64,000 nucleotides of DNA from an uncultured Pelagibacteraceae bacterium (lineage in GTDB: Bacteria; Pseudomonadota; Alphaproteobacteria; Pelagibacterales; Pelagibacteraceae), in NCBI GenBank assembly GCA_902551985.1, contig CACDFI010000001.1, positions 164,376-228,375 on the forward strand, read 5' to 3'. Shown one piece after another: positions 42,098 to 54,776 of this stretch. Within the stretch, counting starts at the first letter, position 1, and the number at the start of each line of letters is the position of its first letter. The notes below the pieces were generated by a model, which was not told the DNA's origin, did no database searches, and worked only from the letters and a program-made list of their open reading frames with translations. A program made the translations under genes and the position numbers.

Positions 42098-43051
42098 TTA
42101 TATTTTTATTTTATTTAATGCGTTATTTTTAAATAAATTTGCCTCTCTAATATATCTTCTAACCATTTGAGTTGATTTATGACCTGTCATAGCCATTATG
42201 CTCCTCTCATCAGCACCAGATTCGGCGGCAACAGTTGCAAACCCTGATCTTAAACTATGGCCTGCAAAATGTTTATTTTCGATACCTGCTAAGTTCAAAT
42301 ATTCTTTCATTAATAATACTACAGATTGGTCTGTTAATCTTTTATGTGACAGTGATAAGCCCTTAGAAAATCTTCTAAAAATAGGTCCAGAATTAATTTT
42401 AGATATTTCTAACCATTTTTGTAAGTTTTTAACAGGACAATAAATTTCATTATTGAAGTAGGGCAGTCCTTTAATCATTCCTTCACCAAATTGGTCGGTT
42501 TTTGATCTTTTAATGGTGATTTTGAGCCCCTCCGGAACAAATTCTAAGTCTTCATGATCAATTGAGATAAGCTCCGTTCTTCTAAAACCACCCCCAAAAC
42601 CAATTAATATTATTGACTTGTCTCTTAATTTTTTAATTTCATCAATTTTTTGTTCATTTATTACATTAATAATTAATTTTAAATGATTGATTAATAACGG
42701 TTTTTTTCCTTTTTGTATGCTACCTTTTACTCTTCTTATGCCCATTAAATTCTCAACAATTATTGGATGTTTTGTATCTAAATAATGCCCTTTAAACTTA
42801 TGAACCATGCTTATAGATACAAGTCTTCTACGTAAAGTACTAATTTTTGAATTTTTAGATAGATGGGTTATGTATAAAGAAACAATTTTTGGGTCAGATG
42901 GCAAAGATTTAAACCCATGTTTTGCACAAAAAGCCCCAAAATCTTTAAAATCTGATTTATATGCTCTTAATGTGTTATTTGCTTTAGAGCTTTTGAGATT
43001 ATTTAAAGTTGCCTCATGAAGTGTTTTTATATCTGTAGTTAGTTCACTCAT
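42098..43051 (-). CDS. Tyrosine recombinase / site-specific integrase
   Basis: 317 residues. An N-terminal SAM-like core-binding domain (TLRAYKSDFKDFGAFC) precedes the catalytic domain with R157 (GFRRTEL), K184, H265 and R268 (GHSLRSGFA), H291 (GHKS) and nucleophile Y300 (VRRYIREA). All active-site residues are present, so it may work. It is not XerC or XerD, which read HxLRHTFAT. It sits at the edge of the glycan island and just downstream of a 13-7-13 bp inverted repeat that may be its site. The target is unknown. Confidence 0.92.
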   Translation of the reverse strand: MSELTTDIKTLHEATLNNLKSSKANNTLRAYKSDFKDFGAFCAKHGFKSLPSDPKIVSLYITHLSKNSKISTLRRRLVSISMVHKFKGHYLDTKHPIIVENLMGIRRVKGSIQKGKKPLLINHLKLIINVINEQKIDEIKKLRDKSIILIGFGGGFRRTELISIDHEDLEFVPEGLKITIKRSKTDQFGEGMIKGLPYFNNEIYCPVKNLQKWLEISKINSGPIFRRFSKGLSLSHKRLTDQSVVLLMKEYLNLAGIENKHFAGHSLRSGFATVAAESGADERSIMAMTGHKSTQMVRRYIREANLFKNNALNKIKI

Positions 43052-43055
43052 ATAT

Positions 43056-43088
43056 TTACTATTGATAACAATTAATTATCACTAGTAA
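43056..43088. other. Inverted repeat resembling a tyrosine-recombinase core site (or integrase operator)
   Basis: TTACTATTGATAA (43056-43068), spacer CAATTAA (43069-43075), TTATCACTAGTAA (43076-43088). The arms match at 12 of 13 positions when the right arm is reverse-complemented. Paired 11-13 bp arms around a 6-8 bp spacer, with inner ends ATAA and TTAT, are the layout of attP-core and dif-like sites. It lies five bases upstream of the integrase start, so it could instead be an operator for that gene. No second copy was found in the window. Confidence 0.5.
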
Positions 43089-43136
43089 TAATATAACTCA
43101 TTTTACATGTCAAGCATTTAATGTAAAAGATTTTTA

Positions 43137-43857: not shown

Positions 43858-44070
43858 ACCTACTCTATCTGATAATGTTTAAAATGAATTAAGAGGCAAC
43901 TCTTAACTGACCAGCTGGGGAAAAACCGAGAGGTTCAAGCCCAGAGGGCAGAAAGCTCTACAGAGTAGCGCTAAAATAGTAGAGTGGAAGGCATGGCGGT
44001 AGCGCATAAAACGACGTGCCAAAAACTACTGTTCTTTGTGCCTGAAAAGGTACAAGGAAACAGGGTTTTC
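43858..44070 (+). ncRNA. Candidate structured RNA of unknown family, upstream of ogt
   Basis: A GC-rich stretch without an ORF in a very AT-rich region. Visible structures: TTAAGAG-GCAA-CTCTTAA (43889-43906), a 7-bp stem with a GNRA loop. Stem CTGGG/CCCAG (43915-43919 with 43940-43944) encloses AACC-GAGA-GGTT (43924-43935), a second GNRA loop. AGTAG/CTACT (43978-43982 with 44026-44030) encloses GGCATG/CGTGCC (43990-43995 with 44015-44020). GCGCTA (43968-43973) can pair with TAGCGC (44000-44005) as a pseudoknot. CTACTCT (43860-43866) matches AGAGTAG (43962-43968), an alternative pairing. GNRA loops exist only on the plus strand. Ends are approximate. It does not match tmRNA, RNase P, SRP, 6S or riboswitches I know. 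Confidence 0.6.
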
Positions 44071-44077
44071 TCGTGTT

Positions 44078-44353
44078 ATGATTCTTAAAGGCACTAAATT
44101 TCAATTGAAAGTTTGGAATTATCTTAAAAAAATACCAAAAGGCCAGATACGGACTTATTCTGATATAGCAAAGGCTATAAATAAACCAAAATCAGTGAGA
44201 GCTGTGGCAAATGCAGTAGGAAAGAACCCATATGCCCCAAAAATACCTTGTCACCGGGTAATCAGGTCGGACGGTTCATTGGGCGGCTATTCAGGTAAAG
44301 GTGGGATAAATACTAAGAGAAAATTACTCAAATCTGAAGGTATTTTGCTCTAA
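44078..44353 (+). CDS. ogt: Short Ogt-like methylated-DNA-protein cysteine methyltransferase (C-terminal domain only)
   Basis: 91 residues from ATG 44078. It covers just the DNA-binding/active-site domain: GTKFQLKVWNYLKKIPKG, TYSDIAKAINKP, RAVANAVGKNP and the alkyl acceptor C58 in IPCHRVIRSDG. Full Ogt proteins are about 160-180 residues. The N-terminal domain is missing, and the preceding DNA is the GC-rich RNA-like region rather than coding sequence. Upstream in-frame codons from 44036 give no family match. It could repair O6-alkylguanine or be a degenerate form. Confidence 0.83.
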   Translation: MILKGTKFQLKVWNYLKKIPKGQIRTYSDIAKAINKPKSVRAVANAVGKNPYAPKIPCHRVIRSDGSLGGYSGKGGINTKRKLLKSEGILL

Positions 44354-53767: not shown

Positions 53768-54776
53768 ACCTGGTATTTATAAATAAGAAATAGATACAAG
53801 AACTTACTAAAAAGATTGAACTTATTTGGTGCATAGATGCGATATAAATCTGTGCACCATACAATACGGTAAATATTCCTAATATTATTTGCAAAATAAT
53901 AAATAAACCTAAAACATTAATTGATTTGTATAAACTGTAAATTTTATTTTTATAAATTTTAATAAAGATATAAATATAAAATATACCAATAAAATAAGCT
54001 AGATTTCTGTGAATAAATTGCACTAAAGACGGGTCGCTAAAAGCAGAAATCTTAAAAAGATTGATTATATCGTTATCATCTGGAAAAAAAGTACTACCCA
54101 TTAGAGGCCATGAATTATAAATTTTGCCAGCATCCATTCCAGAAACAAATGCACCTACAGTAATTTGTAAAAAAATTAAAATCAAAAAAAATAATGGAAA
54201 GAATAAATTTATTTTTATATAATAATCTCTTTTCACATTTATTTTTAAATAATTCCAAAAAATTAATGATAAAATAATAAATGCAATTAATAAATGAACA
54301 GATAATCTGAAATGACTTACATCAACTCTATTAACAAGTCCACTACTTACCATGTACCATCCTATAAATCCTTGAAAACAAATTAATATAAATATGAAAT
54401 ATAAACCTATTAGTTTTAAAAACTTAATCTTAAAAGTAAAATATAACAGCGGGATTAAAAAAGATATGCCAATAAGTCTACCTAAAAACCTATGGGCCCA
54501 TTCCCACCAAAAAATTACTTTAAATTCATTCATAGTCATATCAAAATTTTGAAGCTTAAATTCTGGAATTTCTTTATATAAATTAAAATACATAACCCAA
54601 TCTGAGCTACTCAAAGGAGGCAAGAAGCCTGAAAATAACTGCCATTGTGTAATAGATAATCCTGAGTCAGTTAACCTTGTAAGGCCGCCTACAATAATCA
54701 TAATAGAAATTATTAAAAACATTGATATTAACCAAGCAGATATTTGCTGGTTTACTTTGAGATTTTCACTATACAT
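53760..54776 (-). CDS. ctaA: Heme A synthase (CtaA/COX15)
   Basis: 338 residues with about eight membrane segments. GGLTRLTDSGLSITQW and EWAHRFLGRLIG near the N-terminal heme-binding half, then FVSGMDAGKIYNSWPLM and QFIHRNLAY, the second His pair, are characteristic. It oxidises heme O to heme A for cytochrome oxidase. Convergent with metY and 43 bp from divergent aroQ. No ctaB is seen here. Confidence 0.95.
   Translation of the reverse strand: MYSENLKVNQQISAWLISMFLIISIMIIVGGLTRLTDSGLSITQWQLFSGFLPPLSSSDWVMYFNLYKEIPEFKLQNFDMTMNEFKVIFWWEWAHRFLGRLIGISFLIPLLYFTFKIKFLKLIGLYFIFILICFQGFIGWYMVSSGLVNRVDVSHFRLSVHLLIAFIILSLIFWNYLKINVKRDYYIKINLFFPLFFLILIFLQITVGAFVSGMDAGKIYNSWPLMGSTFFPDDNDIINLFKISAFSDPSLVQFIHRNLAYFIGIFYIYIFIKIYKNKIYSLYKSINVLGLFIILQIILGIFTVLYGAQIYIASMHQISSIFLVSSCIYFLFINTRSN

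Follow-up and report, generated by a model that had tools for sequence, protein, structure and literature searches.

The window analyzed here, a stretch of 64,000 nucleotides from an uncultured Pelagibacteraceae bacterium, contains a short inverted repeat directly in front of a tyrosine recombinase gene, and the locus raises the question of whether this repeat serves to move an island, to control the gene or to maintain the chromosome itself. Our analysis indicates that it is very probably the place of crossover on the chromosome for a dif-like dimer-resolution system with a single recombinase in SAR11 (Pelagibacteraceae), and that it overlaps the promoter of the recombinase as well. The site and its gene consist of the following features.

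43056..43088, no strand: predicted dif-like 13-7-13 recombination site with the inner core GATAA-N7-TTATC, overlapping the promoter region of the recombinase
43056..43068, + strand: site arm on the side of the ATG
43069..43075, no strand: 7-bp central region, TTAATTG in the direction of the gene, identical in 75 of 81 distinct sequences
43076..43088, - strand: site arm on the promoter side, beside or over the presumed -10
42098..43051, - strand: single-copy tyrosine recombinase of 317 aa (PF00589, 72.6 bits) with conserved R157, K184, H265, R268, H291 and Y300
43108..43113, - strand: TTGACA, a -35-like element of the recombinase promoter (+ strand: TGTCAA) whose start is 33 bp ahead of the GATAA core, with the same placement in relatives

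The repeat reads TTACTATTGATAA-CAATTAA-TTATCACTAGTAA. A sequence-only reading of the window had reported it at exactly these coordinates with arms matching at 12 of 13 positions, and had recognized in it the layout of a tyrosine-recombinase core site; we reproduced the former and the 13-7-13 structure bears out the latter. The gene that it placed five bases away is separated from the repeat by four (43052-43055), its minus-strand ORF having the ATG at the 43051 end. With its 33 bp and 18% GC, the site is an AT-rich inverted repeat of intergenic position, outside all the nearby ORFs of at least 60 aa that were listed. We counted two inverted repeats in the window with at least 12 of 13 matching positions and a spacer of 4-9 bp, compared with 1.93 on average across 30 Markov resamplings, and one with a 7-bp spacer, compared with an expectation of 0.23 per window. 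As the latter number makes the repeat alone nonsignificant, we dismissed significance from the window as evidence and turned to conservation. The window's own genome contains one copy of the site (at most three mismatches).

The site lies upstream of the recombinase gene in 110 of 110 loci (at most four mismatches), a set in which the locus of the window is itself counted and a few genomes apparently appear twice under two names. The gap between site and ATG is 4 bp in 109 of these and 2 bp in one. Across 81 distinct 83-mers from the same loci, the mean column conservation was 0.97 in the promoter-side arm, 0.99 in the spacer and 0.99 in the ATG-side arm, compared with 0.75 in the 50 bp upstream. 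A perfect GATAA-N7-TTATC core was present in 52 of 52 further loci, with recombinase identity down to 52%; 28 of these loci come from genomes chosen mainly for being divergent or on a single contig (six genera), and a 53rd, L248, was excluded as it holds only an end fragment of the gene. The seemingly bigger gap at L227 arises because the alignment misplaced the start codon. Among the genomes with a diverged recombinase, we found a second arm class, exactly TTCCGATAA-N7-TTATCGGAA, in 15 of 15, and an earlier blind inverted-repeat pass had placed this class in the top three for 14 of them; some duplicates are contained in these sets of loci. The arm classes TTACTAnnGATAA/TTATCnnTAGTAA and TTCCGATAA/TTATCGGAA switch jointly while GATAA-N7-TTATC stays constant, a pattern that the binding of both arms by one protein would produce. 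Searched across 201 genomes of the genus, mostly drafts, the class A site pattern (at most three mismatches) matched in 108, with a maximum of one match per strand, and the reversed control pattern in 3; a single genome, G003, had a match to the site pattern and none to the recombinase. The sequence-only reading had proposed that the recombinase and its site go together, and had named a lack of conservation beside the same recombinase in relatives as evidence to the contrary; the association is kept in all three sets of loci and across the whole bacterial family.

The gene itself is a single-copy gene of the family. It was the sole PF00589 gene found in the window's genome, which is 97% complete, and it was present exactly once in each of the 22 genus genomes with at least 97% completeness. 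The proportion is lower in drafts: we found the recombinase in 141 of the 201 genus genomes (25 of the 30 with completeness of at least 90%) and, order-wide, in 187 of 248 genomes and six of nine genera, or in 120 of 150 when genomes at least 90% complete were considered with the sister family included. The frequent lack of the gene in less complete genomes counts against the dimer-resolution reading; we interpret the gaps within the family, without proof, as assembly gaps beside a variable region. Matches to PF00589 in 36 genus genomes numbered one in 29, none in 4 and more than one in 3, and in G039 and G056 the single match was a different gene, no recombinase being found in either. This recombinase was the sole PF00589 gene in 8 of 11 single-contig genomes of the family. 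In the sister family, 11 of 12 genomes carry a pair of PF00589 genes with much higher scores, presumably XerC and XerD.

The recombinase also matches PF02899 (24.6 bits), and its residues R157, K184, H265, R268, H291 and Y300, which we take to be the catalytic set, are invariant in 16 aligned proteins. The protein scored far below the cut-offs of the known equivalogs: 65.7 bits for XerC (TIGR02224, cut-off 335.15), 74 bits for XerD (TIGR02225, cut-off 329.6) and 42.8 bits for XerS (NCBIfam model, cut-off 267). An AlphaFold2 model (pLDDT 83.6, pTM 0.66) gave Cre-loxP complexes as the closest structural matches, with a TM of about 0.7, and also matched XerH on the palindromic difH.

A dif site is expected close to the maximum of the cumulative GC skew. 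For G012, 1.30 of 1.34 Mb were read, and the site at 617,602-617,634 is located 1.8 kb from the GC-skew maximum (615,773), and the TA-skew minimum is at 620,846. Three further genomes were sampled as twenty 20-kb stretches each, one of them placed on the site. The GC-skew maximum was at 770.5 k with the site at 773.65 k in G246 (about 3 kb) and at 1,015.5 k with the site at 1,013.4 k in G325 (about 2 kb); in G231 it was at 879.5 k with the site at 920 k, and this distance of 40 kb counts against the dimer-resolution reading. A combined two-breakpoint fit of GC and TA skew, which we tried before the plain GC-skew maxima, placed the switch close to the site in G246 and G012, but at a distance of 40-50 kb in G231 and of about 105 kb in G325, which likewise weighs against that reading; the two approaches agree in G246 and G231 and differ in G325. 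The skew within the window shows no clear switch, its local maximum at 53,853 being away from the site, a further point against. One gene neighborhood is common to the window, G012 and G231 and another to G246 and G325, and as these two genus groups have only 2-4 ORFs in common within about 10 kb, the genomes provide about two independent contexts for the terminus position. A site at the replication terminus suggests chromosome-dimer resolution rather than island movement.

The terminus position is accompanied by a polar heptamer. GAGTAGG was the top scorer of ten G-rich heptamers listed in G012, where the strand-skewed words are mostly A-rich, and it is oriented towards the site in 51 cases and away from it in 7. 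The same polarity was seen in the held-out genomes, with 13 of 14 copies pointing to the site in G246, 16 of 19 in G325 and 14 of 15 in G231 (43 of 48 in total); no position in them outscored the site, and 0.8-2.7% of positions equaled it. The signal was weaker in 80 short host loci (20 of 26, duplicates included). In the window, four of the four copies to the right of the site and two of the three to the left point to it.

43859..43865, - strand: GAGTAGG polar heptamer (CCTACTC on the + strand), right of the site and pointing to it
44679, 52182 and 53417: other GAGTAGG copies right of the site in the window

FtsK with a gamma domain was found in 15 of 16 genomes, including 11 of 11 single-contig genomes of the family; the exception is the draft genome of the window, a result that counts against the dimer-resolution reading. 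Both an FtsK of this type and polar motifs converging on the site are thus present, and GAGTAGG is a candidate for the FtsK-orienting sequence of SAR11.

The dimer-resolution reading draws on the conservation of the site, the joint change of its arms across the family, its single copy and terminus position, the polar motif, FtsK-gamma and the catalytic residues. In the mechanism that we propose, each 13-bp arm would be bound by one recombinase monomer. Once sister chromosomes have been joined into a dimer by homologous recombination, the two terminus sites would synapse and recombine across the 7-bp center, giving monomers before division; the sites would be brought together by FtsK, for which polar GAGTAGG-type motifs are the probable guides. 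In all 28 genomes inspected, a TTGACA-like -35 box (at most one mismatch) starts 32-34 bp ahead of the GATAA core. This puts the site over or right beside the presumed -10 and start region, so that self-repression is likely in addition to recombination: because the site overlaps the promoter, the bound recombinase would dampen its own synthesis. The sequence-only reading had offered an operator as the alternative to a crossover site; the operator position of the repeat is borne out by this register, and the autorepression would follow from it.

Sites of the same kind occur in viruses. Our first site patterns matched 29 viral contigs, none with a recombinase in the stretch examined, and wider scans matching 17, 30, at least 120 and 21 viral contigs gave a total set of 195 viral loci. 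As all 195 were selected by the site motif, the presence of the motif is by construction and its place is not. A permuted control palindrome had no viral-contig matches, compared with at least 120 for the real class B motif. We identified a TerL homologue in 98 of the 195 loci, and 95 of the 97 exact-arm sites in TerL-bearing contigs precede terL by 100-1500 bp (median 404). The two exceptions include L432, the sole contig carrying these sites that has a recombinase homologue. Class A and class B sites are adjacent in 11 viral contigs (L316, L351, L357, L359, L361, L367, L371, L378, L379, L384 and L385). The isolated HTVC010P-type phages HTVC100P (L338), HTVC035P (L339) and Greip (L346) have a dif-like site upstream of terL. 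We compared partial sequences of 12 isolate records of the HTVC010P group, three chosen by site match and the rest by terminase, with shuffled sequences. The best site exceeded all 200 shuffles in five isolates (HTVC100P, HTVC035P, HTVC204P, HTVC024P and Greip) and gave P values of 0.015-0.025 in four further ones, and the parts of HTVC010P, Skadi-3 and HTVC028P examined contained no site above chance (P values 0.47, 0.32 and 0.42).

Among the phage sites, a center equal to a common host center was seen in only 3 of the 25 from class A and 8 of the 72 from class B, and the Greip site, TTACTAATGATAA-TAAAAG-TTATCACTAGTAA, has a center of 6 bp. Homologues of TerL (two queries), portal protein (one query) and head-tail connector (one query) were not found in 162 host loci. 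Given the mismatched centers and the lack of a phage gene or second site in the host loci, the monomerization or circularization of the phage's own genome appears at least as likely a role for the phage sites as integration into the host. Phage P1 circularizes and monomerizes its own genome by Cre/loxP. We lean towards the view that HTVC010P-like pelagiphages borrow the SAR11 dimer-resolution recombinase: the site that they carry a few hundred bp ahead of terL, in some contigs of both classes and thus for hosts of either class, would serve either for integration at the host terminus or for circularization and monomerization of the phage genome. Some HTVC010P-like pelagiphages have been called exclusively lytic because they lack lysogeny genes. 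Buchholz et al. 2021 (PMC8163748) describe Greip and HTVC010P as without such genes; their abstract states that the dynamics suggest lysogeny, chronic infection or host bistability for most isolates. A provirus cluster that includes the prophage PNP1 and has proteins in common with HTVC010P is described in a 2023 survey (PMC10533544), so the idea of lysogeny among HTVC010P relatives is not new. Our literature search found no report of a host-recombinase route for HTVC010P-like phages.

The fixed promoter register would suit an operator alone and counts against the dimer-resolution reading. If the palindrome were an operator only, the recombinase or another protein would repress the gene and recombination would occur elsewhere or be absent; the constant distance to the -35 box and a start codon within a few bp of the site in nearly all loci agree with this. 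Such an operator leaves unexplained the terminus position with convergent polar motifs, the conservation of the 7-bp center and the occurrence of the site ahead of terL in phage contigs whose examined stretches lack a recombinase, and we consider it improbable. An even simpler origin, an AT-rich palindrome that arose by chance and was kept only through conservation of the promoter, fits the 0.23 such repeats expected per window; it is barely credible for a site conserved far above its flank, with arms that change symmetrically between classes and a motif whose one permuted control found nothing in the viral contigs.

An attachment site of a mobile island, with the neighboring gene as its integrase, was implied by the sequence-only reading, and several observations are of the kind expected from an island: the gene encodes a tyrosine recombinase, sugar- or glycosyltransferase-like genes are found to its left (by eye; a GHMP kinase by Pfam), and plasmids and viral contigs carry homologues that have similar palindromes. 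An island should be an insert flanked by two copies of the site, and split copies at island borders were the check suggested there. We found no split or second copies in the 201 genomes, mostly drafts, none of which had more than one match on a strand. The 162 host loci, which are of limited length, likewise lacked a second site-like sequence and contain no TerL, portal or head-tail connector homologue. With the gene a single-copy gene of the family and the site at the terminus, we rejected the mobile-island integrase as highly improbable and retain the dimer-resolution system as the explanation.

The proposed system resembles several known ones in part. The likeness to Cre/loxP of phage P1 lies in the structural matches to the recombinase model and in the 13-bp arms, which loxP has as well; the loxP spacer is 8 bp, and Cre/loxP serves a phage-plasmid whereas the SAR11 site is on a bacterial chromosome. 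With XerC/XerD/dif it has in common the proposed job, the terminus position and FtsK-gamma, and it differs in its one divergent recombinase, nearly symmetric site and 7-bp center. The closest precedent is XerL/dif of Legionellales, which by its published description also has a single tyrosine recombinase and a near-terminus site with long symmetric arms, was overlooked by homology searches, and is exploited by a mobile element with a dif mimic (PMC9765430). The description differs in that xerL of L. pneumophila is more than 400 kb from dif, whereas the SAR11 site is 4 bp from its gene (PMC9765430). XerH/difH of Campylobacter and Helicobacter likewise involves one recombinase and a site that is mostly gene-linked and near the GC-skew peak, and XerH-difH was among our structural matches; the difH consensus is TGAAAAC...TTTTCAAA, and XerH has 353-363 aa in contrast to the 317 aa of the SAR11 protein (PMC2731167, PMC5357621). 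The gene and site of XerS/difSL in streptococci and lactococci similarly form one module, but the difSL arms are described as asymmetric with a center of 11 bp (PMC5357621), and the SAR11 protein reaches 42.8 bits with a cut-off of 267 for XerS.

The survey by Carnoy and Roten 2009 gives Pelagibacter ubique as without dif/Xer (PMC2731167). A term count found no mention of Pelagibacter in the review by Castillo (PMC5357621), "Pelagibacter" and "SAR11" have no occurrences in the main text of the XerL paper (PMC9765430), and no report of a SAR11 dif was found in our search of mainly open-access literature. If our reading is true, Pelagibacteraceae carry one divergent recombinase and its site, contrary to the survey, and the machinery was missed because both are divergent, as in Legionellales. 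It would then mark the replication terminus in the ocean's most abundant bacteria and supply a candidate for the motif that orients FtsK in SAR11.

The relatives of the recombinase offer a hint of its origin. We found a homologue in 15 of the 195 viral loci (23-40% identity, several near-duplicates), and with start codons chosen by us, the TTCCGATAA palindrome was 2-410 bp upstream of it in 14 of the 15 and within 53 bp in 12. The recombinase and palindrome of L432, L453, L456, L417, L499, L409, L412 and relatives are possibly Cre/lox-like phage-plasmid modules. Ten plasmid homologues were examined from the 40 listed of 1,971 records, and three of them have a CCGATAA-type palindrome upstream, one perfect over 11-bp arms: L523 (Agrobacterium rubi plasmid pW2_73_4) and the Sphingomonas plasmids L517 and L520. 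Viral and plasmid homologues with upstream palindromes suggest, as a guess, that the SAR11 system derived from a plasmid- or phage-type recombinase family. The window also contains an IMES-2 RNA motif (RF02035, 161.6 bits) at 43882-44022 on the + strand, at a distance of about 0.8 kb from the site and adjoined by a methylguanine-DNA methyltransferase-like ORF (PF01035) at 44036-44353 on the same strand.
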